Source: Pirellulales bacterium
GTDB lineage: Bacteria; Planctomycetota; Planctomycetia; Pirellulales; S012-138
Reading direction: 5' to 3'
DNA: 52,931 nt
Assembly (NCBI GenBank): GCA_028066245.1
Contig: JALCBR010000020.1
Coordinates: 1-52,931, forward strand
Shown in pieces: positions 5,230 to 51,406 of the stretch (position 1 is the stretch's first letter; the number at the start of each line of letters is the position of its first letter). Below the pieces are notes generated by a model. The model searched no databases. It was not told where the DNA came from and worked only from the letters and a program-made list of their open reading frames with translations. Both the position numbers and the translations under genes were made by a program.

Positions 5230-6306
5230 CTACTTGACCGGCCCCTGACCTTGCAGCACGCCCAAACCGGGGAGTTGGATTGGCAAGCCAGCTTGTGCTT
5301 GACCTTGTTGTGCCACGCCCTGCTGAGCTTGAACCTGTCCCTGTGTTTGGGGATTGAAGCCCTGTTGAGGCACGGCGGCCCCTTGCGGGGTTCCGGCGTT
5401 CAGCGGGACCTGCGTCGCCGTCTCTTGAACAGCGGCCACCGCGGGCGTGATCTGCAAGCCCATCGCCGCCACAGCGGTATCAGCGCGAATGAGCGTGATC
5501 TCAGCAGGCACGGCTTCCGCCAAGGCCAGTTGCGGCAAGCGAACCTGGACGCCTTGCGGACTCCAGTTCACCACTTCGCCGGCAAGCTTCAAGCCGCCGA
5601 TTGCGAACACGGCTTGCCCGGGCTGAGTTCCGAAGCCTTCGCCGGAGAGGGTAATCACAGCGCCGGCAGGAGCGACAGCTTGAGCCGCTGGGTCGATTCG
5701 CATATCAACCAATCGCAGGTTGAGCCGGGGAATGACGGCCAACTGTTCAAACTGGGGCTGGCCTTGCAGATTGCGAGCGCGGGCAACCATGACAATCAAG
5801 TTCTGGAAGGGTGCCGGACGGACCTCGCCCGGATACTGCATTTCCAGGGCGGCAGGTGGCAGCCGCAAATCAACAACAGCTGTTTCGCCTGGGGCGATCT
5901 CCGTCACGCGCTGGCCGGCCAGGGGGAGTTCCGCTTGGAACTGTTCATTAATGGCCGCAGCCAGAACAATGTCAAAGGGAGCGCTGGCGGCAAACGGATT
6001 GGCATTCTGAAAGACGACGCGAATCTTGGGACCCGCCTGGCCAGGAGCGCCAGGATCAACGAGTCGCAAATCAATCAACTGCATGCCGGCATTCACCGGC
6101 GGCTGCGGTTGAACGTGGACGTGCTGTTCAACGTGAGCGACCTGCCGAACAGGCACGTAGAGTTTGCGTGGCGGGTGGTAGGCCCGCCGGATGGGGTAGT
6201 AGCTCCCGCTCGACTGGCAGCTTTGGGCCATCGCTTGTGGCACATTAATGGACGCGACCGCCACGACGGCAGCCAGCAGCAGTGAATTACGGGCAAACTT
6301 CTTCAT
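5230..6306 (-). CDS. Secreted protein with CARDB-like and IPT/TIG-like domains, Gln-rich tail
   Basis: The product is 358 residues. The ATG at 6306 is chosen because AAGGAG (6314-6319) lies 7 bases upstream and the protein then starts with a clean signal peptide (MKKFARNSLLLAAVVAVAS, cleavage near AMAQS). Residues about 70-180 resemble a CARDB-like beta-sandwich (IRVVFQNANPF, then AVVDLRLPP). Residues about 195-285 resemble an IPT/TIG Ig-like fold with ITLSGEGFG. The last 60 residues are rich in Gln, Ala and Gly. The role is unknown; an extracytoplasmic binding or surface protein is plausible. A long open frame on the opposite strand covers the same DNA but lacks these signals. It is divergent from the small membrane-anchored gene at 6664. 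Confidence 0.75.
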   Translation of the reverse strand: MKKFARNSLLLAAVVAVASINVPQAMAQSCQSSGSYYPIRRAYHPPRKLYVPVRQVAHVEQHVHVQPQPPVNAGMQLIDLRLVDPGAPGQAGPKIRVVFQNANPFAASAPFDIVLAAAINEQFQAELPLAGQRVTEIAPGETAVVDLRLPPAALEMQYPGEVRPAPFQNLIVMVARARNLQGQPQFEQLAVIPRLNLRLVDMRIDPAAQAVAPAGAVITLSGEGFGTQPGQAVFAIGGLKLAGEVVNWSPQGVQVRLPQLALAEAVPAEITLIRADTAVAAMGLQITPAVAAVQETATQVPLNAGTPQGAAVPQQGFNPQTQGQVQAQQGVAQQGQAQAGLPIQLPGLGVLQGQGPVK

Positions 6307-6663
6307 CACGAAACTCCTTACTGGGCGAGCATTTAGCTCGCATGTATTCAAGTTGGTTGGGGCGCGGTCTGCACCGCCTCTGACAGTCCAAGCGCACTCG
6401 AAGGCCGGGCGTTACAGTCGTTGCCAGCGGATTCTTACTGAGAGATGCGGCCTCGCTGTCAGCACCCTTCACACCCGTTGAGTTTCTCTGGCGTGATTCT
6501 CTGGATGCCGATACGATGCCCGTTACACTGCAAGGAGTTAGGCTGGTTTTTTCAGACAAGCTTGGCATTCCATGTGCAGTGATTTCGCAGACCAAACCAC
6601 GTTCCACCCTCTGGAGTCGATGGGACTGTTCGTACGCGTCGATGACACGAAGGAGTTGATCTG
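6307..6663. other. Divergent intergenic region
   Basis: These 357 bp separate two genes read in opposite directions and must hold both 5' regions. Ribosome binding sites are visible at each end (AAGGAG at 6314-6319 on the minus strand, AAGGAG at 6650-6655 on the plus strand). I see no coding frame I trust and no clear promoter boxes. Confidence 0.5.
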
Positions 6664-44146: not shown

Positions 44147-45796
44147 ATGGCCACAGACGCACGCACATCACAACAAGCCGCCTGGGAAGACGCGGTCGCC
44201 AAAGCCAAAGCTCGCGACGCCGATTTCACCACTGTTAGCGGCCACGCGATGGAACCGCTCTATTTTCCCGAACACGTTGACAGTGAGTTCGAGAACAATC
44301 TCGGCTTCCCCGGTCAATACCCGTACACCCGCGGTGTGCACGCCAACTTGTATCGTGGCAAGCTCTGGACTATGCGGCAGTTCGCTGGTTTCGGCACAGC
44401 GGCGGAAACCAACGGTCGATTCAAGTTCCTGTTGGAGAAGGGTCAGACCGGACTTTCAACAGCGTTCGATCTCCCGACGCTGATGGGCGTGGACAGCGAT
44501 CACCCTTCCGCTGCTGGCGAGGTGGGTCGCCTGGGCGTGGCGGTTGATTCCATCCATGACATGGAGCGGCTTTTTCAAGGCATCAAACTGGCGGATGTTT
44601 CCGTCTCGATGACCATCAACGCGCCCGCAGCCATCGTGCTGGCCTATTACCTGGTCACGGCGGAACGGCAGGGAGTCCCCTGGGATCAGCTCCGCGGTAC
44701 CTTACAGAATGACATCCTCAAGGAGTATCATGCTCAGAATGAGTTTGTCTTTCCCCCACGGGAAAGCGTCAAACTGGTGGTGGATACTATCGAGTTCTGC
44801 GCGAAAGAGGCTCCACAGTTCAATCCCGTTTCTGTCAGCGGCTACCACATCCGCGAAGCCGGCAGCACCGCCGCTGAAGAACTCGCTTTCACACTGGCGG
44901 ACGGATTCCACTATGTCGAGCAAACCATCGAACGCGGGCTAAACGTCGATCAGTTTGCTCCGCGGCTCTCGTTCTTCTTCAACAGCCACAATGATTTCTT
45001 TGAAGAGATCGCCAAGTTCCGCGCTGCGCGGCGGATTTGGGCCCGGCACCTTCGCGAACGGTACGGCGCGGAGAACCCTCGCAGCATGATGCTCCGCTTC
45101 CATGCGCAAACGTCCGGAGTCAGCCTGCAGGCACAGCAGCCGGAAGTGAACGTGATTCGCGTGGCGTATCAAGCCATGGCCGCGGTGCTGGGCGGATGTC
45201 AAAGCCTGCACACCAACAGTCGGGATGAGACGCTTTCGCTCCCCACGGAGGAAGCCGTGACGATTGCGCTTCGCACCCAACAGGTTCTGGCCCACGAGAC
45301 TGGTGTCCCCAACTCCGTCGATCCGCTGGGCGGCAGCTACCAGGTGGAAGAGATGACCGACACCATCGAGAAAGAGGCCGAAGAGATTTTCGCCGAGATC
45401 GAAGGCCGCGGTGGGATGATCGCCGCCACAGAGAATGGCTATTTTCGTCGCCGGATCGCCGAAAGCTCGTTTGACTTTCAGCGGCAGGTGGACGCCAACC
45501 GCAAGTTGGTCATTGGCGTCAATGCCTTCCAAGATGAGGCGGAACTGACGATTCCCACGTTGGAGATTGATGACAGCCTTGAGGCGGACCAAAAAGCCCG
45601 GGTCGGGCAGATTCGTGAGAATCGCTCCGCTGGCGAGGTGGAGACTACGTTGGAGAACATTCGCGCGGCCAGTCGCAAGGGTGAGAACGTGATGCCTGCG
45701 CTCTTAGACGCTGCCCGAGCGGATGTGACACTGGGCGAGATGATCTCTGCGTTGGCCGACGTTTTGGGGAGATACTCCGGCGTGCAATCAGCATAG
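44147..45796 (+). CDS. Methylmalonyl-CoA mutase-family large subunit, no cobalamin domain
   Basis: The protein is 549 residues and comprises only the substrate-binding TIM barrel. Motifs include QYPYTRGVHANLYRGKLWTM, RQFAGFGTAAETN, GLSTAFDLPTLMGVDSDHPS, SVSGYHIREAGSTAAEELAF and LHTNSRDETLSLPTEEA. The C-terminal B12-binding domain with its DxHxxG motif is absent, so a separate small subunit must supply coenzyme B12; none is in the window. Two-subunit mutases of this design include methylmalonyl-CoA mutase and isobutyryl-CoA mutase, which I cannot separate with confidence by eye. Role: carbon-skeleton rearrangement linking branched or odd-chain acyl-CoA to central metabolism. Confidence 0.9.
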   Translation: MATDARTSQQAAWEDAVAKAKARDADFTTVSGHAMEPLYFPEHVDSEFENNLGFPGQYPYTRGVHANLYRGKLWTMRQFAGFGTAAETNGRFKFLLEKGQTGLSTAFDLPTLMGVDSDHPSAAGEVGRLGVAVDSIHDMERLFQGIKLADVSVSMTINAPAAIVLAYYLVTAERQGVPWDQLRGTLQNDILKEYHAQNEFVFPPRESVKLVVDTIEFCAKEAPQFNPVSVSGYHIREAGSTAAEELAFTLADGFHYVEQTIERGLNVDQFAPRLSFFFNSHNDFFEEIAKFRAARRIWARHLRERYGAENPRSMMLRFHAQTSGVSLQAQQPEVNVIRVAYQAMAAVLGGCQSLHTNSRDETLSLPTEEAVTIALRTQQVLAHETGVPNSVDPLGGSYQVEEMTDTIEKEAEEIFAEIEGRGGMIAATENGYFRRRIAESSFDFQRQVDANRKLVIGVNAFQDEAELTIPTLEIDDSLEADQKARVGQIRENRSAGEVETTLENIRAASRKGENVMPALLDAARADVTLGEMISALADVLGRYSGVQSA

Positions 45797-46597: not shown

Positions 46598-47152
46598 GTG
46601 AAGATCCTGCTCACTGAACGACAGATCTACAGCCGGGTGCGAGAACTGGCGGACGAAATTCAAAGTTCGTTGCCCAGGCAGGATGTCTTCGTGGTTGGCA
46701 TCTTGACCGGCTGCCTGATGTTCCTGGCTGATCTGGTCCGGCATTTAGACACGCCAATGCGGATTGGATTTGTGGTCGCCCAGAGTTATCACGGAACGGC
46801 CACAACCGCGGGCAACCTGGAGTACAACGTAAAAAGCCTGCCCGATGTGGCAGGTAAGCACGTGCTACTGGTGGATGATATTTTTGATTCCGGCCAAACG
46901 CTGGCACGGATTGCCGACGAGATCGCCGCTTGCCAACCTGCCAGCGTGCGCTCAGCCGTACTGTTGGAGAAAGACGTGCAACGAGCGACGGATTTCTTTC
47001 CGGATCTGGTTGGGTTTCGGATCCCCGCCGAGTTTGTGGTTGGATATGGGTTGGACTTCGATGGCCGGTACCGCAACTTGCCTTACATCGCGGCATTGGA
47101 TGCAGGAGACGAATACTCTCTACCAACAGCGAAGGGAGATGTGACCCCGTGA
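46598..47152 (+). CDS. hpt: Hypoxanthine phosphoribosyltransferase
   Basis: The protein is 184 residues, starting at GTG 46598 (KILLTERQIYSRVRELAD). The PRPP loop is HVLLVDDIFDSGQTLARIAD; VGILTGCLMFLADLVRHL and VGYGLDFDGRYRNLPYIAAL are the other family motifs. It salvages hypoxanthine or guanine to IMP or GMP with PRPP in the cytoplasm. Its stop overlaps the start of the glycosyltransferase gene as GTGA, an unusual pairing that implies translational coupling of a purine salvage gene to a glycan gene. Confidence 0.92.
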   Translation: MKILLTERQIYSRVRELADEIQSSLPRQDVFVVGILTGCLMFLADLVRHLDTPMRIGFVVAQSYHGTATTAGNLEYNVKSLPDVAGKHVLLVDDIFDSGQTLARIADEIAACQPASVRSAVLLEKDVQRATDFFPDLVGFRIPAEFVVGYGLDFDGRYRNLPYIAALDAGDEYSLPTAKGDVTP

Positions 47153-48342
47153 GCGGTCTGCGACTGGCGCTGATTGCCCCGCGATACTGGCCGTCTGTCG
47201 ATCCGGTGTCACGAATGCTCGGACAATTGGCACCGGGGCTGGCGGACGCCGGAGCCAAGGTGACGGTTGTCACTCCGCAGCATGATCCGCGGTGGCCCAT
47301 CGCGGCGCTGCATCGCGGTGTGCAGATCGTGCGATTGCGATGCAGGGCACGAGCAAACGAAGTTGAAGAGTTTCGTCCCCGCTGGTTGCGCGGCTGGCTG
47401 CGAGACCACGCTGCGAAACTGGACGCGGTGCTGGTTTCCGGTTTGCGGCAGGCAGCCGGTGTTTGTATTCAAGCAACACGAACGCTCGGCCTGCCCGTGG
47501 CGTTGAGGGCGGAGTCTGCCGGACTCTCGGGCGATTGCCATTGGCAGATCGAAACCAGGACCGCCCAACGAATCAAGAAACTGTGTCGACAAGCTGATGC
47601 GATGATTGCGCCTTTCGATTTAGTGCAGGACGAGTTGATCGCCGCTGGATACCCGCGAGAGCGGATTCACCTCTGTCAGGCAGGCGTGGAATTGCCAGCG
47701 AACGAAGCTCCAGCTGATCGATCGGATGCTCGCGCGGCGATCGCCGCAGCTCACCCTGTTCTCCCAGTTCCTGCTGAGGCGCCGTTGGTAGTTTCAATTG
47801 CTCCCTTAGTGGAAGAGGCGAACGTCGAAATTTTGCTCGATGGCTGGACGCGGGTTCTGGAGCAGTTGCCGGAAGCTCGGTTGTGGCTGGTTGGCGACGG
47901 ACCATTACGACAGAATTTGTGGGAACGCTCCGGCGACATGGGCCTGGCCGACTCCGTTCTCTTTCCTGGTTGTTTCGCGGAGATGGATGAGTTGCTCCAA
48001 GCGGCAGACCTGCTGGTCTGGCCCGGCAGAGACGAAAACCTGCGGCAAGTCCACCTGCAGGCGATGGCCTCTGCGCGACCACTGGTGATGGCCGATACAC
48101 GCATAGCACGGCAGATGATCGTCTCTGACGAATCTGGTCTGATCGTGGAGGATGATTCACCTCAGGCGTGGTCGGCAGCAGTTATCCGAACGCTGCGAGA
48201 CTCCGCCCGTGCACAACAACTGGGAGCGCAAGCCCGGGCTAGAGCGGCACAGCGATTTCCTTTCCGGCAAATGATCGAAAGTCACATGAAAGTGTTGCGA
48301 GCGATTGCTCGCCTGGACTCAAGTACCGACAAGCCGCGGTGA
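47149..48342 (+). CDS. GT4-like glycosyltransferase
   Basis: The protein is 397 residues, starting at GTG 47149, which overlaps the hpt stop by 4 bp; GGGAG lies about 10 bases upstream. The N-terminal Rossmann domain opens LRLALIAPRYWPSVDPVSRM and has GQLAPGLADAGAKVTVVTPQ. The C-terminal domain has PLVVSIAPLVEEANVEILLD, ARLWLVGDGPLRQNL and LQAADLLVWPGRDENLRQVH then LQAMASARPLVMADT, matching the GT-B nucleotide-sugar-binding half of family 4; the usual E-x-F-G-x-x-x-x-E is degenerate. The donor and acceptor sugars are unknown; likely cell-surface or exopolysaccharide assembly together with the next genes. Confidence 0.8.
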   Translation: MSGLRLALIAPRYWPSVDPVSRMLGQLAPGLADAGAKVTVVTPQHDPRWPIAALHRGVQIVRLRCRARANEVEEFRPRWLRGWLRDHAAKLDAVLVSGLRQAAGVCIQATRTLGLPVALRAESAGLSGDCHWQIETRTAQRIKKLCRQADAMIAPFDLVQDELIAAGYPRERIHLCQAGVELPANEAPADRSDARAAIAAAHPVLPVPAEAPLVVSIAPLVEEANVEILLDGWTRVLEQLPEARLWLVGDGPLRQNLWERSGDMGLADSVLFPGCFAEMDELLQAADLLVWPGRDENLRQVHLQAMASARPLVMADTRIARQMIVSDESGLIVEDDSPQAWSAAVIRTLRDSARAQQLGAQARARAAQRFPFRQMIESHMKVLRAIARLDSSTDKPR

Positions 48343-48461: not shown

Positions 48462-49547
48462 TTGACCCTGCGGCTGTTGCACGTGATGAGAGCTGACTCT
48501 CCAGGCGCTATCGCTCAGGTGGATTGGATTGCGCAATTTTCCGGGGCAAACACAAGCTCGATCATCCACGTTACGGACCGCACACGTGTCGGAGGTATGC
48601 CCCCCAGAGATTCTTCACGGACTTGTCTACGTTTGCGAGGGCTGTTTGATGTGTCCGGCATCCGCCAGTTGCGAGCACGCGTTACTCAGGCTAAGCCTGA
48701 TCTTGTTCACATCTGGGATCCGCAGTTTCTTCCGCCGTCAGCGCTGCTGGCACTTGCTCTTGGACGTCGTTGGCCCCTTGTCGCCAGTTTTCGCCATCCA
48801 GTAAACAAGCGGTCTGGTTCTCACTTTCTGTTAAGATGGCTCAGCCGCCGCATTTGTCGTTTCGCTGCGGACAGCGAATTTGTCAAAGCGTCATGCGTGG
48901 CATCTGGCTGGGGAACGACAGACATGCAAGTCATTCCCGGCGGATGCGAGTCGAAAACGTCTGTGAATGGCGTTGTGAGGCAAAAATCTCTGCAACCCAT
49001 CAAGCTTGACGACGAAGCGCGGTTGATCGTTGCCATCGGCTCGCTCTCTTCCCACAAGCGGTTGAGTGATCTGATTTGGGCGGCGGACATGTTGGCGCCG
49101 GTCGAGCCCCGGTTGCACCTGGCGATTGTTGGGGAAGGTCCAGCGCAGGCTCAGCTGGAAGAGACGCGGCATTCCGTTCGACGAGGGCATCGCATTTCCA
49201 TACTTTCTCCAGCTGCCATGCCATGGCTCTTGGATCGGGCGGAGTTCGCGGTTTTGCCAGGCGCTGTGGACGGTTGCTGCCATGCCGCGCTCCAAGCGAT
49301 GGCCGCGGGTTTGCCTCTCGTGGCGGCACGCGGTGGCGGAAATGGTGCTCTCCTCGGTGAAGGCGAAGCCGGGCTCTCGTTCCCTGTGGGAGATCGGGGA
49401 GAATTGGCGCGCACGCTGTGGGGCATGTTGGCGAAACCGGACCGGCAGCGCGCATTCGGCCACGCTGCCCGACGCCGTGCCACGGAACTGTTTCCTGCTG
49501 AAGAGATGGCGTCCGCCTATGCGGACTTGTATCGTGAGCTGTCTTAA
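48462..49547 (+). CDS. GT4-like glycosyltransferase
   Basis: The protein is 361 residues. A TTG at 48462 is the start, supported by AAGGA 9 bases upstream and the family-like opening TLRLLHVMRADSPGAIAQVD. The N-terminal half has QAKPDLVHIWDPQFLPPSAL; the C-terminal half has LIVAIGSLSSHKRLSDLIWA, LHLAIVGEGPAQAQL and LLDRAEFAVLPGAVDGCCHA then ALQAMAAGLPLVAARGGG, the GT-B signature of family 4. Like its neighbour it lacks a clean E-x(7)-E pair. It lies 119 bp after the first glycosyltransferase and 41 bp before the AsnB-like gene, on the same strand. Confidence 0.8.
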   Translation: MTLRLLHVMRADSPGAIAQVDWIAQFSGANTSSIIHVTDRTRVGGMPPRDSSRTCLRLRGLFDVSGIRQLRARVTQAKPDLVHIWDPQFLPPSALLALALGRRWPLVASFRHPVNKRSGSHFLLRWLSRRICRFAADSEFVKASCVASGWGTTDMQVIPGGCESKTSVNGVVRQKSLQPIKLDDEARLIVAIGSLSSHKRLSDLIWAADMLAPVEPRLHLAIVGEGPAQAQLEETRHSVRRGHRISILSPAAMPWLLDRAEFAVLPGAVDGCCHAALQAMAAGLPLVAARGGGNGALLGEGEAGLSFPVGDRGELARTLWGMLAKPDRQRAFGHAARRRATELFPAEEMASAYADLYRELS

Positions 49548-49588: not shown

Positions 49589-51406
49589 ATGACAGCCCTG
49601 GCTGGCGCAATTTGGTCGCCTGACGATGCACCGCTCTCCGAAGCGGTTGGTCGAGCCATGCATACGGCGATGAAGTTCCGCGGCGGCACGGACGTGACCA
49701 TCCATCGCACGGATGTGGCGTTTGGCCATGCTTACCAGCCTACGCCTGGCGCTCTGCTGAGTGTGTCCGACGGCTCGCAACGACAAGCGCGGCAAATTCC
49801 CAAGGTCGGTGAGAACGGTCCGTCCAGTACCTGGTGCATTGTTGATGGCCGCATCGACAATGCCGAGGCGGTGCGGCTGCGATTGGAGGCTGCCGGGTTT
49901 TCTCCACGGTCCCGGGACCTGGCCGAGCTGGTTGCCCACCTCTACGAGGAAGAAGGGACGGATGCATTTGCCCGGCTGCGAGGGGCGTTTGCCATCGCCG
50001 TGTGGGATAGTGACCGCCGCGAACTCACACTCGCCCGAGATCCGTGCGGTCAACGCCCGATGTATTACGAACGTCGCGGAGGACGGATGGTCTTCTGCAG
50101 CGAACTCCGTGGGCTCAAGCCTGCGCTTGCTCAATCGCCGCAGTTGAATGCTTCGGCACTGGATGAGTACCTAACATATGGCTACGTTCCTCCACCGCAC
50201 ACTTTGCTGCAAGGAGTTTCCAAAGTACCGCCCGGCACATGGGTTCGTCTCAAGGATGGGCGGCTGGATTCCGGCCGGTTTGATTCGCTTGATCTCCAAC
50301 ATGAGCTATCGGGGAGCCGGATCGATACTCAGGTGCCGGCCGAGTTCTTTGGCGACCACACGGACAAACAAGGTGGCAAACTCATTGACCTGGTGCGAGA
50401 CGCGCTGGAGGAAAGTGTTCCGCTCGCGGAGCGATACGCCCTGTTCCCCTATTTCACGGAGGGTGATCGTCCATGGGAAATCTTGATGATGGTGCGTTCC
50501 ATTCGCCAGACCGGTGGGGGTGACGACGAAGACGAACTCGGGCCAGACACCAAAGTTCGCGGTGTTGACTTTGACTGGCTTGACTACTTCGCGCAATGCG
50601 ATGAACCCATCGGCGACGTTGCGTCCGCGTCGTTGTTCTTCGCTGCAAGAAAGGCCGCCGCCGCAAGTCTCCCGCTGTTGACGTCGACAGGCGGTCACGA
50701 GCTGCTCGCCTGTCATCGGCGGCATAAGCGGTTGATTTCTATGCAGGATAAGATTCCCGGATGGCTCAACAAGTTCATGGGGAGTGATTCGCGTTCGCTT
50801 GAAGAGCAGGCGGCAGAGGTCCGTGGCCGGCAGCGAAAATATCTGCAAGAGATTTGTCTTTTCGGTGAAAGCGATCGCGCGAATCTCTATGCGGCCGAGC
50901 ATCTACAGTCGCTGGCCGATGTCGATCCGGAAGATTTCCTACATCTGGCCTTTGACCGGGTCAGCAAACGTGATCCGGTCTCCAGGGCGGCGCTTGTGGA
51001 TTGGCAGACACACGTTCCCAATGCGCAACTTGCTGTCGCCGATTGGGCCGCCTGCCGGTTTGATTCCGAAATCTTGCATCCCTTTTTGGACGAGGACGTA
51101 GCCCGACTGTTGGCCGCAACTCCTGGTCGGGCAAAATCCGGCTTGCGGGATTCGATCTGGCCTATGCGGCGAATCAAGTCGGTCGATTCAGAATCTGGGC
51201 CAGCATTCGATGTTGGCGACGTGCCGCTTGCCAGTCTCGACGCCGTGCTAAACGATGAACGGTTCCACAGCCGTAGCTACCTCGATGAAGGTTGCGCCAA
51301 GATGTTGAATTCCTATACCTCGACGGGACCAATCAACATTCGCCTGCATCGCCAGGCATTCGCCCTGGCCGCGCTTGAAGTGTGGATGCGGAAGATGTTG
51401 GATTGA
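49589..51406 (+). CDS. Asparagine-synthetase-like protein lacking catalytic signatures
   Basis: The protein is 605 residues, close to AsnB length, and clearly of that fold: FARLRGAFAIAVWDSDRREL, LARDPCGQRPMYYERRGGRM, FCSELRGLKPAL and LDEYLTYGYVPPPHTLLQGV are all recognisable. Yet the expected N-terminal MCGIAG is MTALAG, so Thr2 replaces the glutaminase Cys; the NGE motif is DGR (about 86-88). In the synthetase half the SGGxDS ATP-pyrophosphatase loop is missing: the matching region near residues 285-300 reads LFPYFTEGDRPWEILM. The later SGDGGDE is STGGHE. The frame is long, clean and well composed, so it is not a decaying pseudogene. It probably acts as a pseudoenzyme, or with changed chemistry, in the glycan cluster. 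Confidence 0.75.
   Translation: MTALAGAIWSPDDAPLSEAVGRAMHTAMKFRGGTDVTIHRTDVAFGHAYQPTPGALLSVSDGSQRQARQIPKVGENGPSSTWCIVDGRIDNAEAVRLRLEAAGFSPRSRDLAELVAHLYEEEGTDAFARLRGAFAIAVWDSDRRELTLARDPCGQRPMYYERRGGRMVFCSELRGLKPALAQSPQLNASALDEYLTYGYVPPPHTLLQGVSKVPPGTWVRLKDGRLDSGRFDSLDLQHELSGSRIDTQVPAEFFGDHTDKQGGKLIDLVRDALEESVPLAERYALFPYFTEGDRPWEILMMVRSIRQTGGGDDEDELGPDTKVRGVDFDWLDYFAQCDEPIGDVASASLFFAARKAAAASLPLLTSTGGHELLACHRRHKRLISMQDKIPGWLNKFMGSDSRSLEEQAAEVRGRQRKYLQEICLFGESDRANLYAAEHLQSLADVDPEDFLHLAFDRVSKRDPVSRAALVDWQTHVPNAQLAVADWAACRFDSEILHPFLDEDVARLLAATPGRAKSGLRDSIWPMRRIKSVDSESGPAFDVGDVPLASLDAVLNDERFHSRSYLDEGCAKMLNSYTSTGPINIRLHRQAFALAALEVWMRKMLD

Follow-up and report, generated by a model that had tools for sequence, protein, structure and literature searches.

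Background

Beta-lactam and carbapenam synthetases and lasso-peptide cyclases are built on the AsnB fold and have a non-functional glutaminase half, and pseudoenzymes have usually been described singly and mostly in eukaryotes. Regulatory pseudoenzymes of active relatives, such as FAM20A and prozyme, keep the fold, have lost the catalytic residues and are under selection (PMC10211241). The TIGR03108 family (eps_aminotran_1) includes WbpS and WbqG, which convert uronic acids to uronamides (PMC7468200). The importance of individual residues in the synthetase domain is known from ASNS, in which the mutants E364A, E364Q and D367A are inactive (PMC6748925).

The AsnB-fold protein described here, P0001, is encoded near one end of a 52,931-nucleotide stretch of planctomycete DNA (the window). 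It resembles WbpS, WbqG and PGN_1234 of TIGR03108 (PMC7468200) in its best-scoring family, its location in a glycan gene cluster and its two-domain fold, but carries none of the catalytic signatures and falls far below the family cut-off. Its predicted fold is also that of E. coli AsnB (1ct9) and human ASNS, but neither active site is present. Unlike the beta-lactam and carbapenam synthetases and the lasso-peptide cyclases, which retain a working ATP-dependent synthetase half, P0001 has lost both halves, and, in contrast to FAM20A and prozyme, it has no partner that could be identified among active close paralogues; the neighbouring enzymes are degenerate instead. A search of the open-licence literature found no description of an AsnB with both halves dead or of a co-degenerate glycan trio.

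Results

Replacement of the active-site motifs of P0001

The losses that the earlier note had listed, namely Thr2, DGR for NGE, RYALFPYFTEGDRPW for the SGGxDS region and STGGHE in a 605-codon frame, are all present in the sequence, and it was right that no upstream start restores an N-terminal Cys, the ATG being the first start downstream of the preceding stop (Table 1). Its statement that the surrounding motifs are kept holds in part. Of 187 columns with at least 95% conservation among 26 intact orthologues, P0001 retains 84, compared with at least 182 equivalent columns in each of 12 intact orthologues assessed by leave-one-out. Its losses also include the HRGPDD motif, the GHRRLSIID loop with its glutamine-binding Arg, and the lysines of KMGF and of the core. 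In the glutamine pocket, loss of the GHRR loop is accompanied by Asn to Asp, Glu to Arg and Asp to Leu changes, and this pocket is partly kept in P0002, the orthologue from a second genus (genome G001). At the position of ASNS Glu-364, P0001 and P0002 have Thr or Ala, and the catalytic lysines are absent.

Table 1 Positions in the window of the block genes and of the replaced motifs
Feature	Position	Strand	Remarks
hpt	46598..47152	+	hypoxanthine-type phosphoribosyltransferase; first gene of block
GT4a	47149..48342	+	glycosyltransferase; GTG start overlaps hpt stop codon (GTGA)
GT4a IAPLVEEANV	47797..47826	+	for xGRLxxxKGL; donor-phosphate Arg to Pro, Lys to Ala
GT4a ENLRQVHLQ	48034..48060	+	second EX7E Glu is Gln
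GT4b	48462..49547	+	degenerate glycosyltransferase; 43/86 invariant columns kept
GT4b GSLSSHKR	49038..49061	+	for GRLWPQKR; donor-phosphate Arg lost, Lys kept
GT4b DGCCHAALQ	49269..49295	+	EX7E replaced (E to D, E to Q)
P0001	49589..51406	+	605 aa; putative pseudo-amidotransferase with AsnB fold, neither active site kept
Thr2	49592..49594	+	for glutaminase nucleophile Cys (Ser in P0002)
aa 45-77	49721..49819	+	glutamine-binding loop region; GHRRLSIID of intact relatives lost; mostly pLDDT <50
DGRIDN (aa 86-91)	49844..49861	+	for NGEIYN; oxyanion Asn to Asp, Glu to Arg
RYALFPYFTEGDRPW (aa 282-296)	50432..50476	+	for SGGxDS pyrophosphate-loop region; aa 279-324 predicted disordered
STGGHE (aa 366-371)	50684..50701	+	for SGDGGDE
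CHRRH	50711..50725	+	two Tyr to His; shared only by degenerate G001 orthologue (AHPRH); intact relatives GYxRY

Both domains are still recognized by Pfam (GATase_7, E=1.7e-23; Asn_synthase, E=1.4e-9). The best NCBIfam family for P0001 is TIGR03108, the XrtA/PEP-CTERM amidotransferases (E=1.2e-38), with 133 bits against a cut-off of 816.9; P0002 scores 297, and the intact block orthologues, at 638-678 bits, are likewise under this cut-off. The curated cut-off of the asparagine synthetase equivalog TIGR01536 (267.1) is passed by the intact block orthologues (484-511) and by neither P0001 (116.8) nor P0002 (196.2). The intact relatives are WbpS/TIGR03108-like enzymes and therefore probably make uronamide sugars. 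Because of its residue losses, taken together with the inactive mutants of related enzymes, P0001 itself is very probably catalytically dead, capable neither of glutamine hydrolysis nor of carboxylate activation. An intact second AsnB-like protein (MCGICG, SGGVDS) is encoded in a separate cluster of the same genome (G000:C59:26643-27086; L002, L173).

The two-domain Ntn and synthetase fold is present in the AlphaFold models of both proteins, with Z scores of 22-28 to solved members. The P0001 model (pTM 0.86) is AsnB-like, with low confidence in the two active-site regions (residues 45-77 and 279-324), in a linker and at 526-540; the P0002 model (pTM 0.91) is good throughout, with a well-ordered PP-loop strand. 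The closest solved structure to the P0001 model is the hydroxyamidotransferase TsnB9 (7ylz; Z 27.6, 518 residues aligned, 19% identity), which is catalytically competent going by its name and title, and AsnB (1ct9) gives Z 23.8 over 430 aligned residues. Enzymes such as the beta-lactam and carbapenam synthetases share this fold and turn up in the structure search, and this, with the ordered PP-loop strand of P0002, speaks for a synthetase-type enzyme with a dead glutaminase acting on a different acceptor. We regard that as very improbable, given that the ATP loop reads RGGVPS in P0002 and is unrelated in P0001, and that the changes at the Glu-364 position and the loss of the catalytic lysines are of the kind that kills ASNS.

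A second degenerate orthologue within the family

The window genome (G000), that of a groundwater-type planctomycete, belongs to a small family, here called f1 and represented by five genomes (G000-G004). Calibration with thiolase gave 71% identity for the window genome against G001 and 65-71% against other families, and f1 is therefore old. P0002 was found in G001, a metagenome-assembled genome of another f1 genus (NC_groundwater_66_Pr7_S-0.65um_66_19), and is doubly degenerate as well, with Ser2, DGELDN, an ATP loop that reads RGGVPS, and PAGADE in place of SGDGGDE. The N-termini read MTALAG in P0001 and MSALAG in P0002, and Cys is found in the intact relatives with a readable N-terminus. 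P0001 as the sole query over the relatives' contigs gave no match, and an alignment query was required. In every planctomycete orthologue where they could be read (~50 distinct loci) the motifs are intact, and there was no third degenerate orthologue among the best-scoring loci with motifs read across the order and class, so that the degenerate sample consists of two genomes, one per genus. In the sister genus g3 (G002-G004), AsnB is absent and GT4a has no full-length match. A distant AsnB-like protein from an acidobacterium (L134, JAKQTR010000040.1, ~6001-6417), with MSGIFG (Ser2), CGEFYH for NGEIYN and SGGLDG for SGGxDS, may represent a separate, partly degenerate lineage.

P0001 and P0002 form one clade (support 100/98) that joins the planctomycete orthologues. 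Their branches are long (4.17 and 2.35; the median is 0.39), and the apparent monophyly could be inflated through long-branch attraction. Each was therefore also placed singly: P0002 falls inside the planctomycete orthologues, and P0001 falls beside or nearest them, its position unsure. A test of shared replacements, which is less sensitive to branch length, agrees with the tree. The same new residue occurs at 15 of the 58 invariant sites lost in both proteins, where shuffling expects 5.3 (p=0.0002), and these common derived replacements include NGE to DG and the two Tyr to His changes (CHRRH, AHPRH).

A sequencing or assembly error, with compensating frameshifts in a metagenome-derived genome, is hardly credible as the source of these changes: both assemblies are fragmented (186 and 390 contigs), but no other frame gives similarity below E=2.4 in the window or 0.26 in G001, and an independent genome carries the same losses.

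The two shared histidines and the residues at position 2 also bear on whether the proteins have acquired new chemistry, for example as a Thr- or Ser-type Ntn hydrolase, the former being an alternative raised in the earlier note, or through a site formed around the new HxRH motif. Thr2 and Ser2 would both be possible Ntn nucleophiles if, as we infer, the Met is removed. Such an enzyme seems improbable, since the nucleophile differs between the two proteins, both have Asp for the oxyanion Asn, and the pocket of P0001 lacks its Arg loop, Glu and Asp, with the loop predicted to be disordered; the hydrolase alternative is thus weakened.

Degeneration of the neighbouring glycosyltransferases

P0001 lies in a glycosyltransferase cluster, as had been noted before, with two GT4 genes directly upstream and hpt at the head of the block. 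In other families (L037, L041, L043, L052) the same block, hpt-GT4a-GT4b-AsnB, contains an intact AsnB, and, as read from coordinates, GT4a and AsnB lie a few kilobases apart on one strand in ~20 genomes. The expectation in the earlier note that homologues would always sit beside GT4 genes fails in G001, where contig C264 holds hpt-GT4a-GT4b together and the AsnB orthologue has tetratricopeptide-type genes as its neighbours on C273. Directly downstream of the P0001 gene, and outside the conserved block of the relatives, is a gene for a transglutaminase-core protein (PF01841; 51602-52678). The catalytic subunit of a methylmalonyl-CoA mutase is encoded at 44147-45796; the protein has 549 aa, matches PF01642 alone and lacks a cobalamin-binding domain.

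Within f1, exosortase is present in G000 and G001, which carry the degenerate AsnB, and absent in G002-G004. A strict tie to exosortase was rejected, as exosortase-negative genomes with GT4a and AsnB exist across the order (e.g., G018, G034, G062). The sole exosortase match of the window genome is at G000:C45:55412-56176 (in L171) and the P0001 gene is on C18, so that it lies outside the exosortase locus.

The earlier note missed that the neighbouring GT4 proteins are themselves degenerate. The EX7E pair and GRLWPQKR are kept in 26 of 26 intact-block GT4b orthologues; the two EX7E positions are D and Q in the window and T and Q in G001, the donor-phosphate Arg is Ser or Ala in these two genomes, and each protein keeps 43 of 86 invariant columns. 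Replacements shared between the two GT4b proteins are no more frequent than chance (2/23, p=0.49). GT4a is better preserved, with 49 (window) and 51 (G001) of 63 invariant columns; in both genera Pro and Ala replace its donor Arg and Lys, and each has lost one Glu of EX7E, a different one in the two cases. Because EX7E is somewhat variable even among intact-block GT4a proteins, GT4a may still be active. In the GT4 enzyme GnaT, the change of the first Glu (E283A) is dead and that of the second (E291A) partly active (PMC12856342). The GT4 pair of G001, at L074:3404-5706, is degenerate likewise, and block orthologues elsewhere mostly keep the GT4 signature residues.

Open reading frames and the pattern of constraint

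An intact orthologue was evolved neutrally in silico to equal divergence in 200 runs. At the composition of the window, this gave a mean of 16.2 stops (minimum 7) for AsnB, and at that of G001 a mean of 9.5 (minimum 2), against zero observed in the genes for P0001 and P0002. The neutral means for GT4b were 8.2 and 5.7, and those for GT4a 7.9 and 5.4, with zero stops observed in both genera in each case. GC content by codon position is of the coding type in the P0001 and P0002 genes and in the GT4 genes. P0001 and P0002 are 40-46% identical across most of the Ntn domain, and identity drops to 3% for the glutamine loop, to 5% for the PP-loop stretch and to 11% near KMGF, a comparison of sequences that shows constraint to fail mainly at the catalytic loops.

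The main rival to selective retention is slow decay of a lost pathway, in which f1 lost a uronamide or glycan branch and the three genes persist as remnants, selected weakly or not at all and still uninterrupted by chance. The joint degeneration of the trio, its absence in g3, the very fast evolution and the dispersal in G001 are all consistent with such a history. Weighing against it are the complete lack of stops in three genes in both genera, the coding-type GC and the confident fold predictions outside the active-site regions, and we consider decay unlikely. Retention for a non-catalytic role is favoured because the frames stay open.

Discussion

With moderate confidence, we favour a pseudo-amidotransferase under selection for a non-catalytic role, whose chemistry was lost in f1 and whose gene degenerated together with its two GT4 neighbours. 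The pseudoenzyme reading of the earlier note is thereby strengthened: the same double loss occurs in a second genus, the two proteins form one clade, their frames are open, the fold is predicted to persist and constraint fails mainly at the active sites. The ancestor would have been a planctomycete surface-glycan amidotransferase, glutamine- and ATP-dependent and similar to WbpS/eps_aminotran_1, encoded in a block with two GT4s. The glutaminase and synthetase chemistry would have been lost in f1 before or during divergence of the genera, with the folded protein retained, and by residue evidence the chemistry of GT4b was presumably lost in f1 too.

P0001 may then be a non-catalytic partner, a scaffold or regulator, in a glycan-assembly unit, most simply in an assembly with the GT4s. 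This role, a plausible one and less certain than the loss of catalysis, is suggested because catalytic residues disappeared from GT4b, and in part from GT4a, in this same lineage, and because the f1 members without AsnB are also without GT4a. Two points count against it: the G001 gene has been relocated away from its GT4 pair, which weakens the argument from the operon, and in a published test a dead GT4 partner, GnaT E283A with KdoT, gave no non-catalytic help. That the whole unit of two GT4s and a WbpS-like amidotransferase turned within f1 into a selected non-catalytic complex, structural or regulatory, is a tentative and rather doubtful proposal.

Annotating the P0001 gene as an asparagine synthase would be incorrect. 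One gene neighbourhood exists here in three states, active across most of the order, present but dead in two f1 genera, and missing from a third f1 genus, and comparing these states lets one ask whether glycan enzymes have a structural role that is separable from catalysis.
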